From Apostichopus japonicus (Eukaryota; Echinodermata; Holothuroidea; Aspidochirotida; Stichopodidae), in the NCBI RefSeq assembly GCF_037975245.1, contig NC_092564.1, positions 27,822,984 to 27,886,983 on the forward strand: a stretch of DNA of 64,000 bases. The letters are read 5' to 3'. Positions within the stretch are counted from its first letter, which is position 1. The number at the start of each line of letters is the position of its first letter. Under the pieces are notes generated by a model. It ran no database searches. It was not told where the DNA came from and saw only the letters and a program-made list of their open reading frames with translations. This document shows positions 539 to 60,502 of the stretch, in pieces. A program made the translations under genes and the position numbers.

Positions 539-582
539 AAAATTGCTACCCTTAATTGTTTTTTTTCTTTTTGTTTTTGTAG

Positions 583-708
583 ATATCGATGAGTGCCAGA
601 CACTCCCTTGCATCAGTGCAAACACTGTTTGCCAAAATACTGTTGGCAGTTTTGAGTGTGTCTGTCAAGTTGGATATCAACTAAACCCTTCTACTAACGT
701 TTGTCAAG
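583..708 (+). CDS. Exon: calcium-binding EGF module 1
   Basis: A 126-nt phase 1-1 exon after a long T-rich tract. It starts DIDEC and carries six cysteines with CQNTVGSFECVC, the Asn/Asp beta-hydroxylation and calcium-binding pattern. The donor is CAAG/gtac. The preceding 540 bp is a minisatellite, so the upstream exon is outside the window. Confidence 0.93.
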
Positions 709-21124: not shown

Positions 21125-22510
21125 TCACTTTTGGAAGTTAACTAATCACTTTTGGAAGTTAACTGATCATTTTGAGTACTCTGCTTACTAATGTTTTTCA
21201 TCATTGTGTTAATCCTGACTGATCTATTGCTGGCGGTAGCTGTTCAGTTGCATCCAAGTTACATTCCTGCACTATTCGCAAAGCCCACCCATCATTCCAG
21301 GCTGTGCTGCATGTTGATTAGTGTAGGCCTTCATTTATCTTGTGATAGGATATGATTTGCTGTCAAGTTAATGCAGAGTGCTGGTGGTCTGCTTATGCAA
21401 TTTGAACAGGAATTTATTTTTTGGGGGGTGGAAAAATGCTGAAAAGTTCAGTTTGGATATATTCAAGTCTTTTTTATGAAATTATCTAGTATAATATTAA
21501 CCAAACCATATTTGTAAACATTCTGCAAATATGCTGGAAATCTTTTCAGTCCATTATTGAAGAAATGTATATTTAACTATACATGTGTAATTATAAACAA
21601 ATTGTAAAGAAAATAGTATAATAGCCTGTTTTAAGAAAAGATTGTTTCTGAACTGTTGTATTTTGATCTGTTCATTCCGCCCCCCGCCCCTCCCCACCCC
21701 TTTAAATGTGTATACATATTGTAACTCCTTCAGATGTGTTCTTTGGCAAGAACAAATTCCAATGGATTGTTTCTCTTATCTGTGTATATTCTGTGACTTG
21801 TGCGACAAATCAAATTTCTTTCTTTTCTATATATATAACCAGGGGGGGGGACTGGCCATATGAGCATTTAGGCAATGCCCAGTGGGCCGGTGTGCCCGCT
21901 GGTTGGGTATGAAAATGGGCCTCTAGCTTGGTAAACAACTTACAGCCAATTTAATGAATCATGGCTGCCGACCTAGCCTATATGTGAAGGATGCCCTGGC
22001 TGGTTTTAAGACTTCTCCTCTCTAAACATAAATTAATAATGTGTATATATCATGCAAGTGTCCTACCCTGGTATGTCTTTCACAATGGATATATTAAATG
22101 TCATGTGTATAGTAAATGTAAGTTCCAAGTTCTTCATTACAAACCAAGATACATTTGATATTGTTTAACTGCTTCTGCAAACTTGCTTGTGTCTCTGACA
22201 CTTTATACATCATTGTAGTCCAATCATAAATTGCATTTATTAACCTAACGTATGTATAAGTTTAAATGTAATTAACTAAAACAATGAAGCCATGTGAAAT
22301 GTGTCAAACTCTACAACTGTCACACTTACCGTCTGGCCTCTGTTTCATTTGATACATTTATGAGAGCTGTAGTAGCCACTTGCCAACAATATATCATGAT
22401 GTATTTAAAACACAAAACAAAATCAAGTTAGGGGAATTTTTTATTTTTATTTTTCCTATCCAATTCAATTCAATTGCTTAAGAAAGGACAATAAAACTAA
22501 GGAACTAGGC
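21125..22510 (+). other. Probable 3' UTR of the EGF/SEA gene
   Basis: A/T-rich sequence without a coding signal. The first AATAAA seen after the stop codon is near 22489 (gacaataaaact), so the transcript may end about 22.5 kb. The exact site cannot be fixed from sequence. A short repeat (aactgatcacttttggaagtt-like) follows the stop. Confidence 0.4.
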
Positions 22511-25389
22511 TCTCATTGGCCATTAAAATTTAAAAGGATGTTAAGATAAGTACAATCAATATGAACAATTTTTAGTAACATATTTGTTTCTTTTTATTGC
22601 TTTAATGATACTGAGTGATGGCTTTTTTCTTCTTCTTTTAACTGCCATATTCTGATGCATTTCATCTTAAGTAATATTGCTTGAGCAGAAAGTAATGGTT
22701 TGATCATTTGGTTACAATCAGCACGACTGAAAATACCAAATGAAAGTGGTAAATGTCTTGCATTACATACCTGACTTCCACTGCTAAAGCCTTGTTCACA
22801 TTTGAGAATGCAAGGAGCATCAGAACTATGCTCTCTCCCCACCCCCCCTACACCCCCCGGAGATCTTAAAGCTAAAAGCGGACACGTCCACATTTGAGAA
22901 AACAAGGTGTGATCAACGAGGAACAGAGAACATTGTGCAGTCACGATGAAAAGTCGCAATGATTTTTTACAAATCACTGTGAGTGTTTTGTCCTGTATGT
23001 TTGTATAATACTTCTGTGACAGTTTATGTGAAAATCAAGACACGATGTATAGTAACAGGAGATCTAGGGTTGCATGAATCCACCAAGTGTCCACGCTACA
23101 ATCTTCAAGTTTACCACCCCTTGTGAAGGTGTGGAGAGGGTGGGGAGAGGGTGGGGGTGGTCAGTACCCTCCCCAAAAGGAATATCTTGGTTGCCGTGTC
23201 TGATCCTGAGTATGCGACCATCCACACTACAATCCAATTGATCGCCCTTGCATGGGCTAGATCATCCTCTCGTTCTCAAAAAAAGTGAGTTAAAAGAAAG
23301 CTTGTGATCCGTAAATTTAAAAGTATCCTGTGATTTGTACACAGTGGTAGTGTCATAAGTGTGTGTTATTAAGGTTGTGCTATTCATATACTTCTTGTTC
23401 TGTGGTGCTCAAGGCAAGTAGTGCTCTATTGAAAATTTGCACACACGAAAAAGACATGAATAGATTAAATTACATTAAATTCTTGCTCATTAACCATTAA
23501 CATAGTATATAATAACACTGGTATTTTTATATGTACAACTTTTGTGTAGAATTCCTACAACCAGGTTAAGGAAGGAGCAACCATTTTTAAAAGTAATAAT
23601 AAAGTACTATTTGTGATCTTGGGTAATGAAGGGAGGGTTATAACTGACTTGGAGGAAACATATGTTGTCAGAAATTAGTATGGCTTATGAGGATAGTCAA
23701 ATATCCTAGATTGGACTCCATGTATATTAACTCACCCAGAGTGTATATAACCACCCTTCGTTACATATGGTTGCTGTACTTTAAAGATAACAAAAGTAAT
23801 TATTTAGTCATGGACAATTAATATCACTTGGTTATAGTTCATGTATCTTTTAAGATTAAGTTCATAGTTTTACTGAAAAGTAATTAATATATTAGAGAGC
23901 AAAATATTCAGTCTTGTTGTCTTTAATATTTATCATATTTTTTCTATATAGTGAACAAACTAGTTCTCACTGGTGATGCCGGTCCAAAATGTACGTCATC
24001 TTAAAAGTACCATAAAATGAATATCAAACTATCCCTAATAGGTTCACATTTCTAAGAAAACTGTTGGAATGCATGGCTAGATGCAAAAAAATGGATTTCA
24101 CCAATTTTCAGAATTTGCAAGTTTGCAAGTTTGCAAATTTGCAAGTTTTTGCAAGTTTGCAAGTTTGCAAAGTTTGAATTTGCAAGTTTGCAAAGAAGTC
24201 AGCAATTTTAATAAATGTGCAGAAAAAGAGAATTGAATGATGAGATGTAACTGATGGAATTGACAAGACAAGACAACTACAAATTCATCATTTTTTCTGC
24301 TCTTTGACAAGATATGTTTCTTTGTTCTCTTCCATAATTGTCTAAACTTTCTCTAGTCAGTTTTCCATTATTCATGTACTTCTTATATAAAGATACTATC
24401 TTGTAATCTGAACAGCTACCTCAAAAATGTGAACTTATTTGGGTAAAGATATTTTCTACAGATTGGTCTTCGTTAAAAGGGCAGCCACCTTTCACTATCA
24501 CCACTGCCCATGACAATCAGTACAACCTTATACACACCTATTAAAGGAGCATATGCACAAGAAAAACAAGAGAGAGTGGTCAGCAGACATGTCATCTTGG
24601 AACTAGTAAAATTACAGAAACACAAAAAAACTTACAAATATAGTCTAAACCGCAGAAGGAAAACTGCTTCTGATAATGCAAAAAAAAGTAAAACATTATT
24701 AAGATCTTGAAGGGCGCCACCGTTATTTCACGGTTTAGTACAACTTACTACAAGATGCTGATTGCAGTTTGCACAGATAATTTTATCAACTGACAAATCG
24801 GTGTAGAGACAAGATTTTTATATTCAAACTTTTTTAAGAGTATTTGAACAACCAATAAGAGACAGAAGGATTAAGCCTTTAAAAATCTGTTGATTTCACA
24901 ACGATATACAACAACAGGAATTAACGCAAATATCAGGATATTTGTCGTTTTGTGTACTAAAGAAAATTACTACACTTTTACCTGCATGTGTATAGTCATT
25001 AATTTACTAAGAAAGCCCAGATTAGGTTTAGTGATTCCTTGTTACGTTATCTATATAGTTTTTGGAGCATGGGCGGACTTTTAACTAATCAGAGATGTCA
25101 GCTTCGTACCAATTAGAATTGTTCAAACAAAACGACTGGTAACCACAGTCTATGCTCTGTGTTTGTTGTTGCCTGGTCACGCAATTTCGTCATTCACGAT
25201 CCACAAACTGATCTTGCCGTCTGCCCCTGTGTGTGTGATGTTGTGCCGTTGACAAGTACAGCTGTGGCAGTGCTAGCAACCAGAAGTGGGCCTGGCCAAT
25301 TCCTGCAGGAACTGAAATAATCAATATTTCCTTTGTCAGAGGCAACGGGATGTTTATAATTACAGCGAGAACAAACCTGCATTGCCTAC
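22511..25389. other. Intergenic region, no gene found
   Basis: Between the EGF/SEA gene and the channel gene. It contains a short gcaagttt repeat (24117-24200) and C/G-rich runs near 22840 and 23130. The open frames here are short and lack domain or splice logic. The promoter of the channel gene should lie toward the right end, but no clear TATA box or CpG cluster marks it. Confidence 0.5.
24112..24200. repeat. Short gcaagttt tandem repeat
   Basis: Repeated gcaagtttgcaaatttgcaa-like units of 8-9 bp over about 90 bp. Confidence 0.85.
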
Positions 25390-25632
25390 ATGCCTTTCAT
25401 TAACAGAAACGGTCCCATGCCGTACAGGCTGACAGTGAAGACGATTGTGAAACCCGACCCAAGGAAAATTTCAAACACATTGGAGATGGATCCAGAAGAA
25501 CCGATTCAGCCAGGGTTTAAAAGAGTGCTGACTTCGTTGGGTAGATTAGAGGATACACTGAAACAACTGGAAGTTAACAGCCGTTCTTCCGACACTGAGG
25601 TCTGGCATAAACCAAGGGAGGGTGGTAAGAAG
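25390..25632 (+). CDS. Exon 1: N-terminal extension of the channel
   Basis: 81 codons ending GGKK at AAG/gtacgg. The ATG at 25390 is the first in the frame used. The sequence is hydrophilic with a helix-prone stretch (LTSLGRLEDTLKQLE), so either this is a cytosolic-type N-terminus or a signal-peptide exon lies upstream. Confidence 0.65.
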
Positions 25633-28600
25633 GTACGGTATCACTGTCAATCAGCGTAAACTTTCAACAGATCCACAATAACTTTAACCATTTACTCAAT
25701 AATGAGCCCAGGCTAGGATAGTGGTCCCTATCTTCTTACAGCTTGTTCACCGACGCACGGTGACGGTATGGTACGTTACAGAGCCTAAGCTTAGTAACAT
25801 CTGAAGTAGGTAGACTCCGAGACTCACTGCATGAAAATAGCCTATCCTAGACCATTGCTGAGAAGGATCAGTAATGTCAAAATGTAGGCACATTCAAACT
25901 GCTAGCCTAGGCCTAGCCTTAGCCTGTTTTTGCTTAAAGATAATGTGATTCTTTCAGAGATGGACATCTAAGGTCCAGCTAAAGATAATAATTAAGGTAT
26001 CATGTTTCATTAAGTACTGTCTGCATTTTGTAGTGACACAAACAAAATGTCACTTGCAGGCAACGGAAAGTTAACTTTTTCAGAGCGTGGCACGCGGTTT
26101 GGGGCGAGTCTTCAATGCCTTTAACAATAGCTAGTTTCCTCCATAGAAAATGGTGCTTTCTGTCAAGGTTGAAACAGTTTTCATTGCCCGGAAAGTTATG
26201 TCAGAAATTATGTCCCCGGCTCTATGAATAGCCAAACATTTGGAAATGTTACCATTTATTTATGAAAAAGAGAACCACCAGTCTTGCATAATTTCTTTCA
26301 GTTGTTCATGCAGGGTTGTAAACCAGCAAGAAAAGCAGAGCTATATAATTCACAAGCTGTAATTCACATGCTTCCAGCTGTGTCAAAAAAGTTTATAACA
26401 CTTTCTTAGAAAATTAATTATTAATTAAGATATTTACAGCAATGTGCTTCTTTGTTTTCACCTAAGCATTTATCCTTATTAGCCAATTTACCTTGAATTA
26501 CCTGTATCTGCTCTCCAGGCATTGTGATGAAGTGGATCCACTTCAAGAAAGAATGATCTCACTACCAGGATTATATGGTATTCTCATAAATAATATAAAT
26601 CCTTTTTTTTTAAATATTTTCTTTATTTCCAGGTCTACTGTAGAGTCAGGTGCAATGTAATTACTGTTGGAGAAATTGACACCGTCAAACAAGAATTTGA
26701 GGCTGAAATATATCTCAGTCTTCGATGGAAAGAGGAACACTTTAAAGGCAAGACGAGAGAGGTAGGTTCATGGAAAAATTGAGTATTCCAATTTTGTGTA
26801 GCAATTTTGAAGGCTGTGAATTTTGTCACTTTTAAAATACTATGGTTCCCAGCAAAACTGCTATAAATCATTGCACTTGTATAGCAATTTGGACATTTTG
26901 CATTGTATTTTGCAGTGTGATTCTTGATAAATTCCTGAGGCTAATTCAGGTTGGTGATTCAAATATAGTCTATACATATTATTCATTCATTCATTCATTC
27001 ATTCATTCATTCATTCATTCATTCATTCATTCATTCATTCATTCATTCATTCATTCATTCCATTCATTTATTTGTTTTTTCACATAAATATTACAATGTG
27101 AATTGAAGTCTTCTGAAAAGCCTATGCTGGCTTAACAAAACAGAAGACTCCCATTATAAATTAAGTAAAAGTTTGCGGCTAGCTACTCAGCTATGTGCAA
27201 TGTTGTATGTGCCGACACATATACGCAAACATAAAACATGATACCAATTTCATCCCACACCCTAGCCAACCCCCTCCATAATCTACTCTCCTTAAAGGCA
27301 TTGTGTGCCCCGCTCTGAAAAAGTTAACTTTCCGTTGCTTGCAAGGGAAGATTTCTGCTTGTCGCTGCAAAATGCAGACAGTAATGAAACGTGATACCTT
27401 TTTATCTTTAGCTGGACCTGAGATGTCCATCGCTGTACTGTTTGTACACTGTGCTGTGGGTATTGACTAGTGTCTAATTACCGAAAGTAGCAAGCTGTGT
27501 GCGTATTTTCTGGGATTGATGGTGGTGTCTAACACTTCTGTTACACCTCATTAGAAACTAGGTCAGAATGCCGGCATTAGACGTTTCTTTTTGCGCGAGT
27601 CTTCACACCCTTTAACCCCTCAGAGGAAAAAAAGTTCAAATTTAACATAATTGCAAATTAAGAGGAATCTGTGAATAGATTTTTGAATCTTTGCCGAAGG
27701 TTCATGGAATCAATGCGATGGTGATTGTGGGTGTGCGCGTGTGTGTATGTGACGCCCTTGGCTTGTAGACACGATAACTCAACAATGGCAAGTTGGATTG
27801 AAGTCATACTTGGTACATAGATGTGCCATACTGAGTAGAAAGCCCTATTGATTTTGGTGCTCATCTCATGTATAAAAATGAGGTCACAGGTCAAACGTAA
27901 AAATATGCAAATGCTAATAACTCCCCAACCAACAGTCAGAATTTATTTATACTCGGTATTAATATGTTGGTAGATAGCAGTTACATGGTGAAATATGTTC
28001 AAGTTGATATTATGCATATTTATTAGGGGGCGGGGCTTAAGTTGATTTTCACTAAAATAGCTTGTAAACACGGTAACTGAACAACAAGAAGTTGGATTGA
28101 AGTCATACTTGGTATATAGATGCACCATAGTGAGTAGATGAACCTCATTGATTTTGGTGCTCATCTCATGAATAATAATGAGGTCACGGGGTCAAACCTG
28201 AAAATCTCCAAATACTAATAACTCTGCAACCGAAAGTAAGAATTTATTCAAATTTGGTATTAATGTGTTGGTACATAGTGGGTACATGGTTACATATATT
28301 CAAAATGATGTTATGCCTATTTAGTAGGGGGCGGGGCTTAAGTTTATTTTCACTAAAATAGGTGGAAAAAAAAACGGTAACTGAACAACGAGAAGTTGGA
28401 TAGAAATCATACTTGCTACATATATGTGCCATAGTTAGTAGATGAACCCTATTGATTTTGGTGCTCATCTCATGAATAAAAGTGAGGTCACAGGGTCAAC
28501 CGTGAAAATCTTTACATGCTAATAACTCTGCAAACAAATGTCAGAATTTATTTATACTTCATATTAATATGTTAGTAGAAAGCAGGTACTTGGTGATATA

Positions 28601-31600
28601 TGTTCAAGTTGATATTATGCATTTTTGTTAGGGGGCGAGGCTTAAGTTGATTTTCCTAAAATAGCTTGTAAACATGGTAACTGAAGTAACTAGCTGGATT
28701 GAAGTCATACTTGGTACATAGATGCGCCATAGTGAGTAGATGAACCCTAATGGTTTTGGTGCTCATCTCATGAATAAAAGTGAGGTCACAGGGTCAAATG
28801 TTAACATTTTCAGAATTGAATCATACTTTGTGTGAAGGTGTTGATAGATAGCGGGTATATGATCGTGTATGTTCAATGTGCTATTAAAGCTTGGAATTAT
28901 AATCTCAATTGGCAAGGAATCACAATAAGCCCACTGGCTTTCTGTGTTTATTTATATATCTATATCTATATGTCTATAAGATATATCCATATGAATATAT
29001 ATTTTTTAAATATATAAACTTTCATGGTTGTGTTTTGCATAAGCTGCTAAACAAGGTGATAAAAAATCAGCTGTTTGTTTTGTTTTTTCTTGTGTTGTTT
29101 TTTGTTGGAAAATTTCTTTTAATAAAAGAAGTAAAAGCAAATGCAGAAGTTGGGTTTGAACCAGGGACCCTGTGATGCAAAATCTTCTGCTCTACCACTA
29201 GACCATTGAGGAGACTCTGACACATTTTGCTTTTTAAATATTTAAAGATCCACTTGTTTGGACTTAGACATTTTATAAAACATTTTCTCCACTGATCCTT
29301 GTCTGGGATGGGGAGGCCGCTTGGGAACCTTGTCAGGGGGGAGGGGGTACCGGCGAACTCACCTGGCTGCTTTGGAACTTACCCTTTCTCGCCTCACCCC
29401 CTCTCTTCCTCGCCTCACCTACCCTTGTTGCCTCCCCCACCCTCTCCCCTGCTCGCCACCCCTTCTCGCCTCACCCTCCTTTTCTTGCCACTCTCTCCCC
29501 TTCTCGCCACATCCTCTCTTGCCCCTCTCCTTTTACTCACCCTTTCTCACCTCAACCTGGTCTTGAACCCAGGAAATCAGGAAAATCAAACAGCTTGTTG
29601 GCAGAACTACCAATCACACCATTTTGGTTCCTAATGGGAAAACTTCGTTTCTTACCTTTATACTTCCGCCTTTTCCAAAGAACAGAAAAGTAAAAGGCTC
29701 TGGCTGGAGTTCGAACTCAGGACATGGAGCTTGTCTGACTCTCTCAGTCACAGAGAACTACCAACTTGGCCACTGCAACTGTTGAGAAATAATGCTCGTT
29801 TCTAATATTTCAACTTCAGAATCCACAATGGAATTAGGAAAAGAACAGAAAAGTAAAAGGCTCTGGCTGGAGTTCGAACTCAGGACATGGAGCTTGTCTG
29901 ACTCTCTCAGTCACAGAGAACTACCAACTTGGCCACTGCAACTGTTGAGAAATAATGTTCGTTTCTAATATTTCAACTTCAGAATCCACAATGGAAGGAG
30001 GAAAAGAGAAGAAAAGTAAAAGGCTCTGGCTGGAGTTCGAACTCAGGACATGGAGCTTGTCTGACTCTCTCAGTCACAGAGAACTACCAACTTGGCCACT
30101 GCAACTGTTGAGAAATAATGTTTGTTTCTAATATTTCAACTTCAGAATCCACAATGGAAGGAGGAAAAGAGCAGAAAATAAAAATGCTCTCATGTGGATT
30201 TGAACTCAGGACATGGAGCTTGTCTGAATCTCTCAGTCACAGAGAACTACCAACTTGGCCACTGCAACTGTTGAGAAATAATGTTTGTTTCTAATATTTC
30301 AACTTCAGAATCCACAATGGAAGGAGGAAAAGAGAAGAAAATAAAAATGCTCTCATGTGGATTTGAACTCAGGACATGGAGCTTGTCTGACTCTCTCAGT
30401 CACAGAGAACTACCAACTTGGCCACTGCAACTGATGAGAAACAATTGCACATTTCTAATATTTCAACTCCAGAATGGAGGAAAAGAGCAGAAAATAAAAA
30501 TGCACTCATGTGGAGTTGAACTCAGGACATGGAGCTTGTCTGACTCTCTCAGTCACAGAGAACTACCAACTTGGCCACTGCAACTGATGAGAAATAATTG
30601 CTCATTTCTAATATTTCAACTCCAGAATGGAAGGAGGAAAAGAGCAGAAAATAAAAATGCTCTCATGTGGATTTGAACTCAGGACATGGAGCTTGTCTGA
30701 CTCTCTCAGTCACAGAGAACTACCAACTTGGCCACTGCAACTGATGAGAAATAAATGCTCATTTCTAATATTTCAACTCCAGAATGGAAGGAGGAAAAGA
30801 GCAGAAAATAAAAATGCTCTCATGTGGATTTGAACTCAGGACATGGAGCTTGTCTGACTCTCTCAATTACATAGCACTACCAACTTGGCGACAGCAACTG
30901 TTGAGAAATGATTATCATTTCTAAGATTTCAACTTTAGAATTCAGAATGGAATGGTTAATTCTGAAAAATTTTTCCTTGAATGTAACAGCCCCCCCCCCC
31001 CCTCCACTCAATTAGGTTCAATTTAGGTGAGAGAGGCCTAGGAGTGAGAGCAAAAGGACAAATTAAACATTTTTGGTTTCAATGAATATCATAACCTTTG
31101 TAATCAGCTTGTATACACGATATCTCAAGAAGGGAATGTTGGACCAAGTTCATGTTTGGTGTGTAGATGTACCACATTGTGTTGAGTTCAAAGGTCATTT
31201 GGGGTCACCAGGGGTCAAAATGTGGAAACCTTGTAAACACAATATCTCAAGAAAAGAAACTTAGGCAGACCTCATGTTTAGTTTGTAGATGCGCCACATT
31301 GAGTACAGGCAGCCTTCCGTTTTGGGTGGAGGTCAAAGGTCATTTAGGGTCACCGGGGGTCAAATTTTTGAAAACATTGTAAACACGATATTTCAAGAAG
31401 GGAAGCTTGGGCAGACCTAACTTTTAATGTGAAGATGTACCACATTGAGTACAAGAAGCCTATAGTTCATGGTGGAGGTCAAAGGTCATTTGTGGTCACC
31501 AGGGGTCAAGTTGTGAAAACATTGTAAACCCGATATCTCAAGAAGGAAAGTATGAGCAGACCTCATATTTAGTGTTTAGACGTACCCCATTGAGTACAAC

Positions 31601-34600
31601 AAGCCTATTGTTTTTGGTGGAGGTCAAAAGTCTTTTGGGATCACCAGAGGTAAAATTTCGAAAACCTTGTAAACACGATATCTCAAGAAGGGAAGGTCTG
31701 ACCAATTCTTTTTCAGTGTGTAGACGTACCACATTGAGTACTGGAAGCCTTATGTTTTTGGTGTAGTTCAAAGGTCATTTAGGGACAACAGGTCAAATCG
31801 TGACAACCTTGTAAACATGATATTGCAAGAAAGGACTTATCTCATTTGGTTTGTAGATGTACCATATTAAATTTAAGGTGCCTATTATTGCTTTTGGTGG
31901 AGGTTAAAGGTCATTTGAAGTCAACAAATGCCAAACATTTAGGTCACTCCCCTCTTACCTTTTTCTCCGCACTAACACTTCATCCTAAACATAATATTCC
32001 AAGGGAAGCTTGGACAGATCGCATATTTGGTATGTCATTGTACCACATTGAGTACAAGAAGCCTAATGTTGTGGGCGGAGGTCAATGGTCGTTTGAGTTC
32101 ACCAGGGGTCAGGTTGTGAAACCATGTTTTAAACAATATTTCAATAAAGACTGATGTCATATTTAGTATGTTGATCTATCTATCACATTTAGTACAAGAA
32201 TTTTGTTGTTGCGGTCAATGGTCATTTCAGGACAGCCTGTGTCATTGTGAATTTATTGTTTGTCACATCACACTGCTTTTCACTGTATTACTAATATCAA
32301 GTATGTTGTACACCCTCACTATACATTACGTCAGATTCTTGCAGAAAATAGCTCATGTTACATCATCGAAACCACTATGCATTTTAGCATTCTGGTTCAA
32401 GGAGGCCAACAAAATGCTACTAATAGACAGAAGAGAGGAAGGTGTGAACGTGGTGTAGCCAGAGAGGGCAGGAGAAGGAATTTAGAGGGCAGTATTGATC
32501 TCCTTCCTGGACATTTTTTAAATTCAAGATCATGCGGTCAGACACTTCCAACCGCATTGCATCCAGTCTCCTTAGCTAATTTGCAGCCTTTTTTTCCATC
32601 ATTCTAGGACATTGACTGGAATGAATGTTGGGATCCCCGAGTGTACTTCTTCAATGCCGTCAACATCGATAAACTGGAGTGCAAACATAACATCGTCCCT
32701 AACGATGACGACTCGGTCGATGGGATTCCCGATGCTCAACTCTCAATCCGGATGAAAGCAACCTTCAAGACTGCAATGCAGCTGCACAGCTTTCCATATG
32801 ACCATCAGGTGAGTATTATATTAATAAATAATAATCAATAAAACCTGGTGCTTCATATAGCACCTTTATCACAATGATTAGTAATATCAAAGCGCTTTAC
32901 ACAAACCAAATATATATAAAAACAATATAAGAAAACATTAATACCAGCTCTTCTGCCTTGTTTCAATTTATTCATGTAATACTGGTTCAAGCTCCATTCC
33001 TTATTATCACATGCATATAGGCTTAATTGTGAGTTATATATCCTGTACAAAGTGCATTTTTATGAACAAAGGAAGACACATCCTATGGCTATATCCCTCA
33101 CAGAGAAACACATTTCCTATGGATGTATTCTAGAGGGGATGAGGATCATAAATTGGGTAAAGCTCACCAATTTTTTCTGCTTTTTTGTTGCAATAGTTAG
33201 TATTCAGATGCATACTGAATGATATTAAGGGACAAAGCCTAATGTATAATACTGTACTTCATTTGCTTACAATGGTACTCTAACCAAGATCAGGGGGCTT
33301 TGGAAAGAGATATTAGCTGCCGTGAAACAAATTCATAATTCATGTAAATATTAGTGCACTATCAAATATGTTACCATTATTTACAGTACAATGTTGAAAT
33401 GGTGTTCCAGCACTGGAGAGGGTAACCTAGGGAATAGATCAGCTTACATTGTGAGATGTATTATATATTGTATGAAATGACTGATCATGGTTCTAATTTT
33501 TTGGTAAAATTGCAATTTTGCCAGTGTTGATTCCAGAGATTACTTGAAGAATTAAGTTGACTTGTGGTATAAAGTTGTGCTTGCTCTATGTATCTAGTTT
33601 CCTTTAGTCATATAAGATATCCATCTCTCAAAGAATTATTATTACCAAACTGACATGAACTTTCCATCTTGGCTCTTTAGAAATTAACGATAAAGTTGAT
33701 GTCAGATTGGCCGCTGGATGTGGTAGAGTTTGTGAAAGATATGAGCATCAAGGACAGCATCAGAATTGATACCTTCACAGGTGAGAAATGACATTAAATA
33801 TAAGCTGAACCTCTAAGAGCTCCTTTTGAAAAGCATTACCAACTTTTTTGGTTATAAGGTCCAAGGTACTTTCCTTTTTACTTGGTATTATTTTACAGAG
33901 CTTTTAAAATGAAGTAGAGAAATGCAATTTTATTTTTTTAAGAGAAAAATAGAATGTTCCAGATTTGGGATAATTTTACGTGTAAAATTAATATCCATTT
34001 ATGTAAAATTAGAGAACCCAGAAGATCACTTCTTGATTTGTTGAAATTATTAACTTCCTGTTTGTATTTAAAAAATTTAAGAACTTTTAGTATCTTTAAA
34101 TAATTTCCTATTGAGAACTAAATTTGTCATAATTTTTTAATTATGTTACCTCCCGACTACCGTGTCACATGTGTTAGGGAGAGCAAGACATTCAGTATAT
34201 ATCATCAATACAAATTGATTTGAGTTTCATGTGTGCCCATAATATCAGTCAATGAAATCCCAATTATTAATCTACCAGATGCCTCATTTTTATCATAGAT
34301 GCTGTTCATCCTAGATCTAACGTATCGCAACGCTTAAAGTAAATATTGATAATTGATATAAATGTTGATGATGATGGTGGTGATGATGATGGTGATGGTG
34401 GTGGTAGTGGTGGTGGTGATTCAAATTTTATATATGGAATATTTCTTTTTGACAAAATTAACACTCTGTTGTTATTGTAACGATGCAGCTGGTGCATTAT
34501 CATTACATTTTAACTCCCATTCTTTTTAGTATCAGTGATCGTTGCTTTGAGAGTTTTGGTTTTTTGAGTACTAAATGTTGAATTGTGGTATTTTTCAGGA

Positions 34601-37600
34601 CACCACGAGTGGACCCTTCACAAACATGTGCTGGCTCATGCGGTGGAGGAGGATCGAGCCAAGACTGGATCTCATCGACAGTATCCCATCTACCATATAT
34701 CAACTCACGTACAGAGGCAGTCCATGTATTACTTATGGAACATAGCTCTGGTCATTGTAAGTAACCTCAACTCAAACTCCATCTTTGTTCTGTCATTTCC
34801 ATTGTTAGGGAAATAATAAACCTTACAGATGGGGAAACAATAACCTATTGTCTGACCGGGAATAATTTATTCCAGTATCGCTTCGCAAACTGTTTTGCGA
34901 GATGGTCGAATCGCTATACAATGTCCAAAGGTATATTATTGTTTTCTTTTAAAGACTGGTACCGTATAGAATTTGATGAGAGACACATTTCAGAACCTTC
35001 AATACTGCTACACAATGTTTGAACTCTTACATTATTCCCTGACAACTGCAGTTGGGCAAGAAAGAAGGTTTATTTTATTGGATAGGACCTGTGTCATGAT
35101 CTCTTTAAGTTTATAGTCGTACCGCATACTGGCATTTTTCACTCCCACTTCATACATTAAGGCCATTCATTGGTTTCTGCTGGGTATCTTGCTTGATTCT
35201 GTTTGATTATTTCCTCTGATTTTCATACTAGGTCTTACTGTACACTAGTACAGTTACTTAACTCCACACTTGTTGACTACTTTAACATGATAGATATTTA
35301 TAATAATAACTGTACAGCTATGACTTGTTATACTTACTATACTGCAAGTATATTATGTCCACTAAAACTCAAAATTTGTCTTTAGTCGTTGTCAACTATT
35401 TCCAGCTAACACCTGTTACACTGCCAACTGTTTGCAGTTCACCAGTGCCAACGATATTGAAATCGTCTGAGAACGAAGCTTTTCCTGCAAATCATTATTG
35501 TGAAACTTCTGTTACCTTTGAAGGAAATTGAATAACGAATGTACAGGATGTGTAGATTAACCAGTAAATGTACATATTAACATCCCTAATAATTCTCTTT
35601 TTAAGCCTTTAAATTATGAGTCATAACTTTTTCATCACATTATCCTTCAATTAAGTAAAACTATGTAATCGTTGGCAAGGTAACTAAAACTTAAAGCATT
35701 TCTTAGCATCCAGCTTTGCTAAAGAGCAATGCTGGATGATAAAATTGCTACAGAAAGTCCCAACATTATGACATTTACTTTGGTTCCTTTGAACGTGAGC
35801 TTTAAATTTAATTTTTTTGGTGGGGGGGGGGGAGCTTAATTCCCTTGGCGACATGGCTCTACTGCAAATCATGTCACAAGGATGAATCTATTGGGAAGAG
35901 CTCATTAAGGAGACTTCAAGGTATTAAAGAAATGCCTTCAATGGACAGATTGTAGAGTCTGAAATATGACAGCCACAAGGAAAGATGACTAGGTTAAATG
36001 AGTTCAAAGCATTGCCCGCAAAATGTGTGATAGCAGAACCACAGTATTAATAAGTAGACTCATTCGATAAATGATGTCTATTACTGTAGATGCAAAGTAT
36101 TTGGAAAGAATAAGTTGAAAGCAGTTTCACTTTGGACAGAAGGTGGGGTACTTGTGTAATATGAAAGGTTGTCAAATGAAAAGACTTTCATTATTTTGAT
36201 CTTGTGAGTGCAGATAAGTACCAGATTTCAGTGCAAATGTCCAGTTTTGATGAGCCCTCTAAGAGAAAGGGCTTATAAATCCATCATATGATCATCTTGT
36301 GACATTTCTGCATAGATTTTAATTTTAATGACATCTTAATCTAAAGATTAAGTGTAAATAGTATTCATGATAAATTCTCTCCCTCTCTTTCTTTGCACAT
36401 GATGGATTGACTAACTGTTAGCATTCTTCTATATTTCTTTTGACAGTTCCTTATTCTTGGGTTGAGTTTTACGTCTTTCTCGGTGGAAGCCTCAGCTCCA
36501 GCCGACAGGCTCAGTGTTACAGTGACGTTACTCCTCACAGCGGTTGCCTTCAAGTTTGTGGTCTCATCAAACTTGCCAACCATTTCGTACTTGACTCTTT
36601 TGGTAAGTATGTTCTGTCGTATAGGGGCAATGATCTCGTAAATTATTTGAAGGATTTTCCCTCAGCTACCGTGTGACACCATGCCGTAGGAAGAGATGTT
36701 TTACTCTTGATTTGTTAGGGTTTTCAGGTTTGAGAAGAAGAATGGTAATGTTGTCACTAAGGTGCCAAATCAGGAATAAACAGACACAGAAGGTGTATAA
36801 TTTAGAGTTGTTAATTAGTCCAATTTTTCACAATAACCATTGAACCCAGCAATACCATTTTTGAGTCACCATATCCCACCAAGAGTGACAAGATTATGGT
36901 GTGTGCTTTTAATATGTGATCTGATCTTGTATTACTTCTTGTATGATATGATATAGCATGTAAGCGGTGTCAGAAATATGATTTAGAAATGTTGAAATTG
37001 GAAGCCACATGATGTGAAAGTTGTAATCAATAAGCCCTTGCAGTCTTCTCCAACATTCCTGGTTGCTCAACATCAGAGAAATGCCTGCCTGACTATTTTT
37101 ATTATCATTGGTATTATTTTATGCAACCCTGTGTGGGACTGAACATGAAGGAATGGTTGAAAGCAAATTTCTTTTGGAGATCTTAACAACTTTTAGCTAC
37201 TTTTTCTCTTAACTTGATAGGCCATTAAAACCAACTGTCATAAATGCCCAAATTGCTGTTGTTTTGGTCGGACCATTCATTTTCTTTAGGCCAATGAAAT
37301 TTGAAACAAAAACAAAGAAGCCATTTTAAAATGCCAAACTGTGAAGGAGTATGATAGATAACGCAATGTTTATATGTAGGTATTAATGTACATGGTGTGC
37401 ATGTATAATTGCTGTGTATAGCCGTGTGTCGCCCTTTTAGGATTAGATTGTTAAGGTTTCAACAATTCTATCTGATGTTTCCTTACCAAATCTTTTAAGT
37501 CTTCAAGAAATCACATTTGATTACAACTTGTTTCTCTGTTTTCTTATTTCACTCAGGATAAGTATGTGTTATGGAGTTTGGTCTTCCAGTGTTTGATGGT

Positions 37601-39734
37601 GGTACAGAACGCTGTGGCGGTCGTGTTCTACAAACATGACATGTCCGACATCTTTGACTACATTTGCATGGGTGGTTTGGGTGGTTTCGTCTTAATTGGA
37701 AATGCTGCATTCATCATTGCTGGAATTGTTAAAGTAAGGTGTTTTAATTTGCTCTGTTTTCTTTTAATATTTGATTTGGTAACTTGTATACAAAAGTTTA
37801 CCAGTATTTTCAGACATTTTCTCCTCCAATATGCTGTCATTATAAATATTCACCCAAAATAAAAAATTAAAGGAGTGATCAGACCCAAAGCTCGCCCCAA
37901 AACTTCAAAGTCTAACCGAGCAGAAGTGGACGCTTGTTTACTAGTTGTTAAACTCTACCTCAACTGGTAAAATTAGAAATTACCCAGCTTTACTATAACA
38001 CTAGAGACTTAGATAATACATGATAAACATAATGTGGTGATTGTGTAAGCTAAGGAATGTGGAGATGAAGGTGATATGCTGATTTGTTTTTTTGGCTTTG
38101 TTTTGTTTTCAAACTCATTTTTGACTTTTTGTCTTCTTCAGAATTCTAGTGCCAAGGATAAACTGGACAAACTAACTAGGCAGTATTTGGTATGTATATA
38201 TGAACTTTTGGGCATTTGATGTACACTTAACAAATATAATATGGGAGGGTGATTTGTTTTAACAAAGCAGTGACCATTGATAAATTGATAAAGAACCAGT
38301 GCAAGTTTATAAAATTGCCATAAAATGAACTGACTTTTTAAGGAAAATTTCAATTCAAATTGCAGTTTCAAGAGTACTGTTTCATATTTTGGTAATAGGG
38401 CTTTACTTTTGTAATAACTCATTTTCTAAGTTTAATTCACCTCTTTCATTGGTGCTGTTCAAGAGTAATAATTCACCTATTGATGATTGCTTTACTCAAT
38501 GAATCCCTCATTTCATGGGTTAACTTTCTTATCGTTGCTATTAAAGAGTAGTGAACATAGCAACTGAGGATAGCTTTACTCCACAAAAGCCTCATCTAAG
38601 TTTTAATGAACGTCTTTATCTTTCCTTTTCAAGAGTAGTTTATTCACATATTATTATGGTTACGTTACTTGAAGAATGCCTCATTTCATGGTTACACTAC
38701 TTCATTAGTTCTGTTCAAGAACCATGCCTCTTCCCCTTTTTATGAACTTTTCCATCGGTGCTGTGCATTAGAAGGGTATATTCATGACAGTTTTCTTGAC
38801 AAAATAATATCTTTAAACATTGAAGGATAGAGATACTAGTCATACTACTAACTTCTTCATGCAGGATTTGTGTGATGATATCAACCAGAGATGGCAGACT
38901 AGACAACAGAGGAAAAGAGACAGAGATATTGCCAAAGAAAACCAATCTCAGATGCCTGCCTCTGAAAAACCATCACAGCCAAACCCATCTCCTACTCCTG
39001 CAACAAAAAAGAATCAGGTCGCTCCTACTAGTGATGAGAATGGAATCGAGGTGAAGAAGATGGTAATTAGTGACAATAACAAATTTCCATTTCAATGGCT
39101 CTATGTAGGATCTGTGAATATTGCACATTTTCCTAAATTATCCTTTCAAGTTGTTTGATATTTTTACTTCCATCTAAGGCTTCAGCCTTCACTTTTATGT
39201 TAATCGATACTAGTCAGAATTAGTTGTACCTGTTGTTTTTCATTTTTTATGGCTACTTGGGAACATGATTGGAAACTAATAAAATAAGTTAAGAATGCTT
39301 TTTCTGATGACATTTTGTAACTGGCAATCAAACTAACAATGTTTAGAAGGAAGGCAGGCAGGAGTCTGATCTGATAATGAAATTGCTGTCTCTGTGAAAG
39401 TCATTGCAGTAAAAAATACTGGGATGACCCACAATATCCATCTCCCGACCCCCCCCCCCCTCCCGCCTCTCCATGTGGCAATGAGAAATCTGATAATGTA
39501 TTATCCAAGTTGATTTTGTGTAGCCCATTGGTAGATAATGTGTAATACATTATCCTCCCTTACAATAAATATATCCCCTTCCTTTCCAGTGTACACACCA
39601 AACACATTCAGTAATGCTACACTCACTGTGGTCTCTCAGATCTGACATCCTTTCTTTACCTTCCTGTGTTTCAGGCGGATCCAGCAATATTCACCAGTGA
39701 GACAGAAACATCAGCTGACATGCATATGGCTTAG
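25390..39734 (+). CDS. Pentameric ligand-gated ion channel subunit lacking the Cys-loop cysteines
   Basis: Ten exons, 489 codons: 25390-25632, 26633-26761, 32608-32808, 33681-33780, 34599-34756, 36447-36602, 37557-37733, 38142-38189, 38865-39062, 39675-39734. Phases chain throughout. Residues 82-265 form the ligand-binding beta-sandwich (WDPRVYFFNAV near 132-142). The Pro-loop SFPYDHQ is at 185-191, but Thr179 and Leu193 stand where the two loop cysteines belong. M1 is about 267-288. M2 is about 298-318 with R0', S2', T6', L9' and Asp at -1' (cation-type, by analogy), followed by LPTISYLTLLDKY. M3 is about 332-353, the linker only about 10 residues, M4 about 364-387, and then a Lys/Arg- and Pro-rich tail of about 100 residues. 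No signal peptide is seen at the chosen ATG, so an upstream exon may exist. Likely a plasma-membrane channel; ligand unknown. Confidence 0.88.
25955..26120 (-). mobile_element. TTAA-type MITE, truncated copy in inverse orientation
   Basis: Reverse complement of the first half of the elements at 27296 and 48800: aaagttaactttccgttgc-like core, gccccaaaccgc near its terminus and AGGCATTGAAGACTCGCC at the end, next to TTAA (26121-26124). The other end is missing. Confidence 0.8.
26633..26761 (+). CDS. Exon 2: first beta strands of ligand-binding domain
   Basis: 43 codons, phase 0-0. VYCRVRCNVITVGEIDTVKQ followed by EFEAEIYLSLRWKE matches the pLGIC strand beta1-beta2 pattern (…E.E..Y.SLRWKE). It contains two cysteines four residues apart (84 and 88). 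Confidence 0.87.
26981..27068. repeat. (CATT)n microsatellite, about 22 units
   Basis: An uninterrupted attc tetranucleotide run in intron 2 of the channel gene. Confidence 0.99.
27296..27611 (+). mobile_element. TTAA-flanked MITE, full-length copy
   Basis: 316 bp bounded by TTAA on both sides (27292-27295, 27612-27615). It starts AGGCATTG. Its right end, reverse-complemented, reads AGGGTGTGAAGACTCGC. About 85% similar by eye to the copy at 48800-49148. No coding capacity. Confidence 0.85.
27757..28830. repeat. About 303-bp tandem repeat, about 3.5 copies
   Basis: gggggcggggcttaagtt recurs at about 28025, 28329 and 28632 (spacing about 303), and tgctaataactc recurs at about 27911, 28213 and 28517. 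Each unit also has ttggattgaagtcatacttg and ttttggtgctcatctcatg. Intronic in the channel gene. Confidence 0.92.
29142..29215 (-). mobile_element. tRNA-like Pol III module (pseudo-tRNA)
   Basis: On the minus strand: A box tggtctagtggtagagc and B box ggttcaaaccc, 74 nt in all, with an anticodon-loop-like gattttgcat. Stems pair poorly, so this is not an intact tRNA. First of a series of such modules, all on this strand. Confidence 0.6.
29555..29630 (-). mobile_element. tRNA-like Pol III module
   Basis: Minus strand: A-box-like tggtgtgattggtagttc and B box gggttcaagacc. Lies between the module at 29142 and the eight-unit array, and looks like a diverged relative. Confidence 0.5.
29672..30950 (-). 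repeat. Tandem array of eight tRNA-like Pol III units (153-163 bp)
   Basis: A marker at the B-box side recurs at 29698, 29861, 30024, 30187, 30350, 30503, 30660 and 30817. On the minus strand each unit has A box tggccaagttgg (seven exact, the last cgccaagttgg), a 5-bp stem TCTCT/AGAGA around loop GTGACTG, and a B box (gagttcgaactcc or gagttcaaatcc). A run of four or five T's follows within about 20 nt, a potential Pol III terminator. Acceptor stems do not pair, so these are tRNA-like or SINE-derived, not tRNAs. They lie antisense in intron 2 of the channel gene. Confidence 0.85.
31100..32240. repeat. About 145-bp diverged tandem repeat, about 8 copies
   Basis: The phrase gatatctcaagaag recurs (near 31119, 31241, 31388, 31532, 31677, 31819, 31991, 32136), each with gtaccacattgagtacaag and ggtcaaaggtcatttggggt. 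Copies differ by 10-25%. Similar isolated sequence lies at 60570-60760. Confidence 0.9.
32608..32808 (+). CDS. Exon 3: ligand-binding domain up to the Pro-loop
   Basis: 67 codons, phase 0-0. Contains WDPRVYFFNAV (the W-x-P-x-[LV]-x-F-x-N-A strand), an acidic loop PNDDDSVDG and ends SFPYDHQ at the splice site. The Pro-loop is thus cut by an intron right after its Gln. Confidence 0.92.
32818..32905 (-). mobile_element. SINE/LINE 3'-tail fragment, reverse orientation
   Basis: The reverse complement reads gtaaagcgctttgatattac then ggtgctatatgaagcacc and an attatt tail, the pattern of SINE tails such as the one at 1183-1488. Confidence 0.5.
33681..33780 (+). CDS. Exon 4: strand after the Pro-loop
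   Basis: 100 nt, phase 0 in and 1 out. Starts KLTIKLMSDWPLD. The second Cys-loop cysteine would sit at the Leu of KL. Confidence 0.88.
33781..34598 (+). other. Channel intron 4
   Basis: A/T-rich. Only a (gatgatggtggt)n stretch at about 34360-34422 stands out. Confidence 0.55.
34599..34756 (+). CDS. Exon 5: end of ligand-binding domain and start of M1
   Basis: 158 nt, phase 1 in and 0 out. Encodes HHEWTLHKHV, the pre-M1 segment ISTHVQRQSMYYLWN and the first half of M1. Confidence 0.9.
34757..36446 (+). other. Channel intron 5
   Basis: About 1.7 kb of sequence without a recognised repeat family, with a T-run then G-run near 35812-35833. Confidence 0.5.
36447..36602 (+). CDS. Exon 6: end of M1, complete M2
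   Basis: 52 codons, phase 0-0. PADRLSVTVTLLLTAVAFKF is the pore helix with R0', S2', T6' and L9'. The M2-M3 loop NLPTISYLTLL follows, a hallmark of the superfamily. Confidence 0.93.
36985..37115 (+). mobile_element. SINE body fragment
   Basis: gttgaaattggaagccacat, gtgaaagttgtaatcaat and aagcccttgcagtcttctcc parallel the body of the SINE at 18568-18825. No A/B box head is present. In intron 6 of the channel gene. Confidence 0.6.
37557..37733 (+). CDS. Exon 7: M3, very short linker and M4
   Basis: 59 codons, phase 0-0. The conserved DKY opens M3. About ten residues (YKHDMSDIFD) separate M3 from M4, against 50-270 in animal nAChR/GABA-A subunits and similarly few in bacterial GLIC/ELIC (family knowledge). 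Confidence 0.9.
38142..39734 (+). CDS. Exons 8-10: hydrophilic tail after M4
   Basis: Exons 38142-38189, 38865-39062 and 39675-39734, all phase 0. A basic helical stretch (INQRWQTRQQRKRDRDIAKE) is followed by a Pro/Ser/Asn-rich segment and a short acidic end before TAG. No fifth transmembrane helix. In the standard pLGIC topology this tail would be extracellular, which is odd for such a basic sequence. The last two exon joins are supported by splice sites and frame only. Confidence 0.75.
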
Positions 39735-44085: not shown

Positions 44086-47000
44086 CTAGTCAAAAAGGAA
44101 AAGAAGAAAGAATCATAAAAAGCAACATAGCTCCTAATCCATATCATATAAAGTCGATGGTCAGACCCAAATTGCAGTCTGCATGATTTAAGAACCGCAG
44201 GTGGTATCTAACATTCTTTTCTATCATGTGGGCTGCTCAACTATGACTGTCAACTCACAAGTGAGCTGCTGAAACCTGAATTATAGTCTGGGTGATATAA
44301 AGAACTACAGGCGCTATACCACCTGAAGATTCTCTTTAAAAACTACCGATTGGGCTCTCAAGTGGGCAACTATCAATTAACAAGTGGGCTGTTGCAGTCT
44401 GAATGATTTGAAGAAATACAGGTGATATCCAAAATGGCAACCCCGTAAAGATTTGCAATAGTGTTTTGACGCCTGGCAGAATATTCAACTCCTTGACAAC
44501 ACAATTCAAGAGGAATCGGAATACCCATATACCTCTACATGCTTATCAAACATTGTTCACCTCTTACAGCTATGTGTTTTTAAGAAATTTTTCATTCTAT
44601 TCAAAATATGTTTCACTTTTCATAAGTTATCATTCAATTGATAATCACGGTCCCCTGCACTCTTTTAAAACAAATGAATTTCCAGACTTTACCAAGACCA
44701 AACCATGTCTTACAGCTTACTATGAAGCAAACCTACACACCAATAATGACCTAATGTAAAGCTACCTTTGGTAAAGCCTAACAATTCTTGCAATATTTAT
44801 GCCAACCCCTGTCAATGATATTTTTTTGGTGAGGAGGAATTTCAAAGAGCCATGAACCCCAATGATGTCATGCTGTAGCCAAAGTTAAACAATACACTTG
44901 ACTTTTTCTGGCACTTCTTAACAACTTTGCTCGCAAAGGTCATATCATAGAGGAAGAAGTGTTCAAATGAGAGGTTTTCATGACTTCACTTAAAAATTCA
45001 AGACCGAGAAACATGGTCTTTCCACTTCCCTACCTTTTCCTGTAACCATCATGCAACCACTATGCGCCATATGTTCTGCACAACATGCTATCCATCTAAT
45101 ACACATATCTCTGTTTAAAATAAATGAATGCTGTTCAGCTGCTGTTACATTATACCTGTAAATATTCAAATTTGAGTATTACTTTTAATTACATTTCCCT
45201 CATCTTTTCTGTTTTTTAATTAAATAGTCTCTATTGGATATACTAGTTACCAGTACATTGTGGCTAGTAAATTGATATCACATGGACAACATAACGTCAA
45301 TGAACCGATTTACTCTTAGCAGAATGCAGCTTACCATACACAGATCTGGCAATTTCGTTGCACCAATATAAAACAAAAGATAAATTTACTCACGTTGAGT
45401 AATAGAAACTTGTTTATAGAATGTTTAAAGATGGCAAAGAGTGATCAATATGCCAGACAGCAAATTGTCTTATACTACAAACATATATGGATCTCAATTC
45501 TTACCTGAAACATTGTCTCAATGTTATCATATTTCTCTTTGAGAAGTTCTCCCCAAGAGGTAAGGTTGCAGTAGGATAAGATGCCACCTGGTTTCAGGAG
45601 TCTGAAGGCATGCTTACTGATAAATTCAAACTGGTGTGTGTGCCATGTCTTCTCAGAGAGTGGATATGTGTCATACAGGATTCCTAGGAAATGACATTCA
45701 TATAGAGATGTACAATATGTATGTTAAGGAAGCTGTTTTGCTAAGAGTTGTTCATGCTATGCATTCACAATAGGCAACACTGATATAACACAAGCTTGCG
45801 GTATATAAACACTCTTCATAACTTTTACATTTATTTCCCACTTATTCACGTTTCGGATGAAATTGCTAGTGTGGAAACAGGATGTCTTTGGTGTGTCTTA
45901 TATCAGGGCAATCTTTGTGTTTTTGCCGGTTGCCCATTGGATGACCAGCTTGTCCCAATTTTGGTTGTACAAAGAGCAAATTTGGTTTTCCATAGAAATG
46001 TAGCCAGATCACAAAGCTTGATCAATGTATTCACTGTAGGAGAGATGTGTAAGATTCGGCAAACAGCAAAAAACAGCTATGGTCATCTAATAAAGCTACC
46101 ACTCGGACAGGTGGTTCATAGGCCTACGGTACCACTATTTTTTGGCTTGATTTATCAGTATATCTCCAAAGTGATGTAGGGGTGATGCCAATTGATCAGT
46201 TTACCCATTTGAGGGTATTTAGTTAATGCAATATACATTCATGTGAACAACTAGTTGTCTGCCAGGAAAGGTGACTTTTCTTCTTGAGTGACCATAAAAG
46301 TTCTTGCAGAAATAATTAGAAATAAAAAATAAAAAAATGATAATGAATGATTATTTCCCAATATTGCCACTTTTGGTATTTCTCACCGGGTACTTCCAGT
46401 CCATGCAGTATTCCTGCCCAACCCTGTAAAATATAGACCTCTTAATTACCATCAAATGATTCATCTTCCAGATTAGGAGCAACATCCTCCCAGAGGCCTT
46501 TCAGTGGAGTGACCTTATGAGGTTGTTCTCTTGCCCAATCTTGCAGCCTATCGAAGACTCCACTGTTGCACTCAATGATGACATGTTCTTGTATGCCCTC
46601 ACATGCCTGAATCTTTCCACTGGCTATACCAAGGCCAAAGCCTACCTCTAAAACACGGCCACCTATTGAGAGAAAAAACAACATCTTTGTTATATCATTT
46701 ATTCATTAGAAATGTCATTGAGACACAACTAAGGTTAAAGGTCAGCAGTGTTGCCCCCAAGATATGCTAGAAAGTTAAATAATGGTCACTGAGAGTTTTA
46801 ATTGTGTAACTGAACATTCGTCAATGTCTGGGAATATCTTGGAAGGTCAGATCCTCCCAGAATTACCTTTTTCTTTCTTAATCTCCATTTAGCGTGCTCA
46901 AATTTCTGTCCAATACTGATGACATCATCAGTGACATAGGCACACAACAGACAGACATAACTAGGACATGTGTGTCTTTTGCAGTTCAATTGACATGGCA

Positions 47001-59216: not shown

Positions 59217-60206
59217 GTGGTGAGGGTGCAGTGAACCAAACCATTCACTGTATTTAGTCTAGCATTTTTAGACACCCTCATCTGGACTTTGGTATGGTCC
59301 ATGCTTATTTGGTAGGGTCTATGCTAATTAGCTTGACCTTACAGTGACCTAGTATATACTAAGTTGATGCCACATGGCAGCAATCTCTCTATCTCTCTCT
59401 CTCATACCTGCTGCCATACAGATAGACCTCTATGCTATACTGTCCTGTGTTGTAACTTCATAGGCATGCATGCATCTTGTGCTTTTACTGTAGCCTAGCT
59501 TAGTAGCAGTTTGACACATGATCAAGTATCATTAGTTTACTTATTTCTGCTCCGTCTCGCAATTGCTCTTTGTAAATGTAAGGCCTTGCAGCAGCTTTAG
59601 GGATATTGCTCACTGGTCTGGCCTCACAGTATTAGCCTGGGCAAGTGAAAAAAAAAAACTAAACTTGGGATGAACTTAACACTTACTATGCAGAATTCCT
59701 CAATAGTGAGTATCAGAGCTCTGCTGTTATCTGTGGAAGACAAAGGTCATTTGCAGGCAAAACAAACACTTGTTTGACAATCAATGTTCTCAAATAACAC
59801 TTGGCAAGGTATCACAAAGCCTGTTGACTTTCTGCTTATTTTCTTGCAAAATGTTCACAAAGGTATGGCTGAATGTTCTCATTCATCAGTTCAACTGATG
59901 GTAGTTGTATCATGTGATAGAGCTCTCTTTCTTTTAATCTTTCCAGGCCATAAGCCCAAATGTTAGAAAACCTGCTTCAGATTTTCATATTTTGTGACAA
60001 TGTATAGAGAAAAATGTGGATTACAATGAATTTTATGATTGTTTTATCAATAGTAGATTAGGATGTTCTTTCTCTTGTGTAGAAGTTTTGCTGTACGATC
60101 ATTAAGTTTGTTGCTTTTATTATTAAATATTTTATTTAATCCTAATTTTATTTAATTTGAGTGCATCCCCCTTCAACTAATCGTTCAGTGTTTGTTCCAT
60201 CCACAG
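59217..60206 (+). other. Intron remainder where a catalytic exon would be expected
   Basis: About 1 kb after element B. I searched by eye for an F-G-S-x(6-8)-D-L-D-type frame and found none. An (ctct)n tract lies at 59386-59402. Confidence 0.5.
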
Positions 60207-60502
60207 CAAGTTCAAGAGTCCTCATCAGCAGCAACATCATCGTCATCATCGTCACGAGATGCAGATGGAGCATCAGATGGGGCCAACCCAACTACCGCAT
60301 CCGATGGCTCTGAAATGGAGGAGGATACTCTTGATCCCGATCAGGCTCCGGAGGAGGAATGTTTGGAATTTGTTGCCCAAATCATCCAAAAGTGTGTACC
60401 TAGTTCCCATAAGGTGCAGACCATCGCCTCTGCTAGGAAGCCTGTCATCAAGTTTGTTCACAAAGATTCAGGACTGCACTGTGGTATCAATTTGAATAAC
60501 AG
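60207..60502 (+). pseudogene. TUT1: TUT1-like exon: linker and third-Asp region
   Basis: Ser-rich then acidic linker (SSSSSSRDADGASDG, EMEEDTLDPDQ), as in TUT1's insertion, followed by ARKPVIKFVHKDSGLHCGIN. In active relatives this position reads H-x-D-[VI]-[SN]; here the Asp codon is GGT. Open throughout. Confidence 0.8.

Follow-up and report, generated by a model that had tools for sequence, protein, structure and literature searches.

A probable Cys-less (Pro-loop) channel subunit encoded by a single gene beside many Cys-loop receptor genes in the sea cucumber Apostichopus japonicus

Animal Cys-loop receptors, such as the nicotinic acetylcholine receptors (nAChRs) and the GABA-A, Gly and 5-HT3 receptors, are recognized by two cysteines in the loop that gives them their name. 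Recent publications have described animal relatives that lack this pair. Jaiteh, Taly and Henin (2016, PMC4795631) catalogued 69 Cys-less metazoan sequences and, in the accessible part of their report, described a group of five deuterostome sequences from Branchiostoma and Strongylocentrotus. Johnson (2023, PMC9874803) found 182 related RefSeq proteins in taxa that include the Echinodermata; according to the portion available, these proteins often have an acidic residue at position −1′ or −2′ of the pore helix. Here we describe a gene at positions 25390-39734 (+) of a 64,000-nucleotide stretch of the Apostichopus japonicus genome (NCBI RefSeq assembly GCF_037975245.1, contig NC_092564.1, positions 27,822,984 to 27,886,983), hereafter the window. 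We think it likely that this gene encodes a Cys-less, or Pro-loop, channel subunit of an old eukaryotic kind and not a recent bacterial gene, and that it stands as a single gene beside the many canonical Cys-loop receptor genes of this echinoderm. Since Cys-less animal channels have already been reported, it is mostly a new example. A preliminary description of the locus had assumed that animal receptors carry the loop disulfide, a premise that the 2016 catalogue, as far as its accessible text goes, had already made outdated.

The predicted protein of 489 amino acids belongs to the pentameric ligand-gated ion channel (pLGIC), or Pro-loop, superfamily, and both the ligand-binding domain and the four-helix membrane domain (helices M1 to M4) are present. 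Pfam Neur_chan_LBD matched residues 72-265 with an E-value of 4e-9, Neur_chan_memb matched at 8.6e-6, just below its curated cut-off, and the matches in PDB included GABA-A beta3 (2.2e-12), deg-3 (2.9e-12) and sTeLIC (3.3e-12); given these Pfam and PDB values, the family match is not due to chance. NCBIfam TIGR00860 covers residues 72-384 (1.1e-28), although its 100 bits are below the curated cut-off of 280.

The loop and pore are as the preliminary description had read them: the Pro-loop SFPYDHQ and the M2 helix are intact, and both loop cysteines are replaced. FPYDHQ starts at residue 186 (32791-32808), residue 179 is Thr (codon 32770-32772) and residue 193 is Leu (codon 33684-33686), and in a 53-row alignment the last two fall in columns occupied by Cys in 11 nAChR-like receptors of the same genome. 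The only cysteines of the protein are at residues 84, 88, 131, 149, 341, 366 and 407. In the spliced frame, M2 reads Asp −1′, Arg 0′, Leu, Ser 2′, Val, Thr, Val, Thr 6′, Leu, Leu, Leu 9′, then NLPTISYLT, with Lys at 15′. The residues of the coupling pathway (the Pro-loop Asp, the pre-M1 Arg, the M2-M3 Pro and Leu 9′) are retained. Like the metazoan Cys-less receptors, as characterized in the accessible parts of the two reports, the protein combines an absence of loop cysteines with an F/YPxD motif and an acidic residue just before M2 (here at −1′), and echinoderm members of that clade have been reported. With the canonical nAChR-like receptors of its own genome it shares the fold family, FPxD and the pre-M1 Arg; in those 11 receptors, however, a single open exon frame covers M1, M2 and the final part of the ligand-binding domain, whereas here M1 is split between exons 5 and 6.

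M3 and M4 are separated by about 10 residues (KHDMSDIFDY), in agreement with the preliminary description, and this linker is acidic. Because exon 7 (37557-37733) carries M3 except for its first residues, the linker (about 37632-37661) and M4, alternative splicing cannot lengthen the linker there. AlphaFold2, given exon 7 alone without an alignment, predicted helices at residues 2-26 and 30-58 joined by a 3-residue turn (mean predicted local distance difference test score of 74). Alternative exons that restore the cysteines, which the preliminary description had considered, were also sought, and none in the window was convincing: there were 435 tblastn matches outside the exons, the best with an E-value of 0.13, and they were taken as chance. 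A Cys-less loop, a short M3-M4 linker and a similar M2 are likewise found in ELIC, sTeLIC and three bacterial loci from a search of Verrucomicrobiota (L034, L007 and L038). The bacterial linkers are basic and span 14-24 residues (median 21), whereas ours is acidic and measures 17 on the same scale, so linker length alone is not distinctive. The bacterial proteins also stop at most 6 residues past M4, in contrast to the tail of 102 residues, with a basic start, in the sea cucumber protein. In the accessible parts of PMC4795631 and PMC9874803, we saw no mention of a C-terminal tail of this length among metazoan Cys-less receptors. The Alpo receptors of Alvinella are also invertebrate pLGICs, with reported M3-M4 domain lengths from 11 residues, but Alpo1-7 retain the Cys-loop disulfide, according to the portion of that report at hand (PMC4801368).

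We searched the source genome (671.6 Mb in 35 contigs) with the protein and found one copy, the next best matches being 23-26% identical. Cys-loop receptors are abundant in this genome: there are at least 152 ligand-binding-domain exon matches (150 of 211 candidates scored), and a membrane-domain search gave 91 exon matches. The gene of the window was absent among the matches listed in both family searches, so these searches could overlook paralogues as divergent as this gene, and a further 57 matches of this genome to L034 were mostly not read for cysteines. Both loop cysteines are present in all 11 aligned nAChR-like receptors and in 19 of 20 further loops sampled. One locus, L097, shows the second cysteine only, but its exon seems to start inside the loop, and we did not count it as Cys-less. 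As a separate observation, His replaces the Gln that follows the Pro-loop Asp in some of the sampled loops (FPKDKH on contig C16, FPYDSH on contig C8), and dense clusters of pLGIC exons resembling tandem expansions occur on C1 (17.85-18.15 Mb), C13 (8.3-9.3 Mb), C16 (15.0-17.1 Mb) and C20 (11.76-11.85 Mb).

The nearest sequences that we found are bacterial, namely L034, L007 and L038 from the Verrucomicrobiota search. At an E-value of 0.001 or better, the protein matched 12 of 337 Verrucomicrobiota genomes (the phylum of L007) and 24 of 343 Planctomycetota genomes (the phylum of L021). In Chloroflexota (the phylum of L009), 5 of 301 genomes matched at 1e-10 with a five-row alignment that included the query, the strongest match being the genome of one of those five rows. 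The best-scoring match, L034, is 30% identical (3.4e-27), L007 is 33% identical over 250 residues, and stretches of about 110 residues reach 36%. The cysteine pair is absent, by eye, in all 37 bacterial rows of the alignment. Pattern searches of genome-contig and viral-contig collections with the protein gave no relative, the matches listed among phage records all had E-values of 2 or worse, and plasmid records held one relative, from Legionella adelaidensis (4e-4), and one chance match.

It could be proposed that such a gene was transferred horizontally from bacteria into the animal lineage and then gained introns. In fact, L034, L007 and L038 share with the protein the Asp −1′, Arg 0′ pair and a similar M2-M3 stretch. 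Nevertheless, no close relative emerged, the best-scoring match being the 30% of L034, and the gene has nine introns. Trees were built from the 53 rows (the query, the genome's own 11 nAChR-like receptors, 37 bacterial loci, sTeLIC, ELIC, GABRB3 and deg-3) over 186 columns, which begin ahead of the Pro-loop and extend to M3, or over 184 once the two cysteine columns were removed. In the 186-column tree, the position of the query is poorly resolved, with L034, L007 and L038 nearest by path, and a clade with these three has a p of 0.294 in the approximately unbiased (AU) test. The 184-column tree joins the query to L034, L054, L029 and L032 with a support of 95/87, as a transfer might predict, but these four rows, drawn from several phyla, have long branches, and the query with L034 alone has only 91/25. 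We therefore consider a transfer quite improbable, and the acquisition from microbes that the preliminary description had offered as one of two origins is not demonstrated, while the other, an ancient Pro-loop lineage, fits both the data and the accessible parts of PMC4795631 and PMC9874803.

The second alternative is that an ordinary animal Cys-loop receptor secondarily gave up the M3-M4 loop together with both cysteines, in the manner of the nematode lgc-34-type channels; secondarily Cys-less receptors do exist in nematodes, to judge from the accessible parts of PMC4795631 and PMC9874803. The 186-column tree separates the 13 Cys-loop rows from the bacteria and the query at 95/88. Without the cysteine columns, the nAChR-like rows and deg-3 still stand apart at 100/100, but GABRB3 shifts to the side of the bacteria and the query, which shows that the 95/88 split leaned on those columns. 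Thus, of the comparison with nAChRs and GABA-A receptors called for in the preliminary description, the separation from nAChRs held in the trees and that from GABRB3 did not, and the AU test rejects neither grouping (nAChRs with the query, p of 0.346; GABRB3 with the query, 0.182). In the same test, a tree that keeps the Cys-loop rows together has a p of 0.422, and one that groups them with the query 0.225. The core-column identities to the query speak against a secondary loss, at 19.6-27.5% for the bacterial rows, 21.8% for GABRB3 and 13.4-19.7% for the nAChR-like rows, as does the absence of the vicinal and second-loop cysteines. On balance, this origin seems unlikely, if a little less so than a transfer.

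The gene thus most probably belongs with the old eukaryotic Cys-less kind and is not a recent bacterial gene. Several observations nevertheless weigh against this attribution. The tree set contained no other eukaryotic Cys-less sequences, the published animal ones included, and a single anion receptor. The query forms a long branch (1.57 in the 186-column tree), the 95/87 grouping mentioned above places it among bacterial rows, and the AU test rejected none of the placements of the query that were tried (p of 0.18-0.35). Finally, the proline of M1 is absent: the query has Val in a column where 51 of the other 52 rows keep the proline, the exception being L040, which has Ser. This also sets the protein apart from the published pLGIC set, compared by its description, in which, in the part accessible, 77% of sequences have the M1 proline, a residue that is neither universal nor defining alone. 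The M1-M2 region that includes both this position and Lys 15′ lies at 34724-36563.

The missing M1 proline might also point to a decaying, non-functional gene or to a wrong gene model, as might the first ATG, the context of which is weak by eye. However, the ten predicted exons have GT-AG borders and are joined without a stop or frame break, and the coupling residues are conserved; we regard decay or an erroneous model as very improbable indeed. Eight of the nine introns are in phase 0 and one is in phase 1. Exon 1 (25390-25632, all exons being on the + strand) encodes the N terminus and a presumed first helix. In-frame ATGs occur at residues 1, 10 and 33, and the best start context by eye is that of codon 33 (25486), which leaves the N terminus uncertain. 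Exon 2 (26633-26761) encodes the first strands of the ligand-binding domain, exon 3 (32608-32808) continues this domain up to the Pro-loop, and exon 4 (33681-33780) begins right after it. The end of the domain, the pre-M1 Arg and the first part of M1 are in exon 5 (34599-34756), and the remainder of M1, the M2 pore helix, the M2-M3 loop and the first residues of M3 are in exon 6 (36447-36602). After exon 7, the basic start of the C-terminal tail is in exon 8 (38142-38189), the tail continues in exon 9 (38865-39062), and exon 10 (39675-39734) holds its end and the stop codon. Intron 2 contains two tandem arrays, one of a 163-bp unit repeated 8 times (29677-30952) and one of a 304-bp unit repeated 3.5 times (27761-28798).

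By analogy with other family members, five copies of the subunit would assemble around a pore lined by M2, a ligand would bind at the subunit interfaces, and the signal would reach M2 through the pair formed by the Pro-loop Asp and the pre-M1 Arg. The Asp at −1′, next to Arg 0′, suggests a cation-selective pore, the selectivity of which this Asp would confer. Classical acetylcholine is an unlikely ligand on sequence grounds, because residues 150-340 contain no cysteine and hence no vicinal pair in loop C. With a nearly absent intracellular domain, the protein would lack the region usually involved in clustering and trafficking, a role that could pass to the long C-terminal tail.

The gene is real, well formed and of an already reported kind, and its unusual N and C termini make its membrane orientation worth testing. 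An inverted insertion would place the N terminus, the ligand-binding domain and the C-terminal tail in the cytosol, giving a pentameric channel that has no signal peptide and opens in response to a ligand inside the cell, and the disulfide would then be absent because this compartment is reducing. The lysines and arginines flanking the membrane number 6 on the normally outer side and 2 on the inner side, a distribution more reversed than in any of the 37 bacterial relatives: the inner side has the higher count in 30 of them, both sides are equal in 4 (L007, a near relative, included), and the remaining 3 are reversed by no more than 2. The nAChR-like exons of the sea cucumber lack M4 and were left out of this comparison. 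These counts are small, however, and the first 15 residues of the tail contribute five of the six outer charges. Furthermore, the first 60 or so residues contain no uncharged hydrophobic 8-residue core, whereas 35 of the 37 bacterial rows have one, a few of them weak. Scanned from its three Met, the protein failed a loose signal rule passed by 40 of 44 bacterial open reading frames (ORFs), which were scanned more generously, from any M, V or L in their first 60 residues. A loose scan for a signal exon at 20001-25400 found no candidate, with 0 or 1 in each of five control stretches, and a strict scan of 5401-25389 yielded a single poor candidate, at 7138, which is flanked by EGF exons of the adjacent gene and was rejected. 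Nevertheless, the loose scan likewise came up empty when run on two canonical nAChR genes of this genome, over the roughly 5.8 kb that precede the first ligand-domain exon, so the missing signal peptide is weak evidence, and a signal exon lying far off could readily escape such a scan. Residues 1-266 contain no N-glycosylation sequon, but shuffled sequences had a mean of 1.1 and a 0.29 probability of none. The term "signal peptide" was not found in the accessible text of PMC4795631, and one literature search on pLGICs with an inverted topology and a missing signal peptide, within the library used, turned up no account of such an arrangement. Taken together, we find inversion a bold, testable and rather doubtful reading.

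As for the surroundings, the upstream gene (540-19945, +) encodes EGF domains of the calcium-binding type, with what looks by eye like a membrane helix towards its end, and an exon at 60156-60503 (+) resembles a poly(A) polymerase with an MTPAP-like palm domain. An ORF at 46445-46702 (−) presumably resembles guanidinoacetate N-methyltransferase; it gave no Pfam match at 0.01. There were no transfer RNAs in the window and no Rfam families in 20000-41000. Elsewhere in the assembly, the mitochondrial COX1 (L005), translated with table 5, has Lys at positions where a conserved Asn is expected in this protein (GKW, MKK). AAA therefore reads as Asn, a trait of echinoderm and flatworm mitochondria, and together with the look of the protein this points to an echinoderm. 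Besides a long COX1 on C35, contig C29 carries at 14745-31219 several COX1 matches that are broken and contain TGA codons; they are perhaps a misassembled or nuclear mitochondrial copy.

An apparently single-copy Cys-less channel amid the numerous Cys-loop receptors of a single deuterostome suits the study of how this fold matures without the disulfide. If it were true, an inverted orientation would change what the receptor fold can sense. The gene also bears on whether the Cys-less lineage predates animals.

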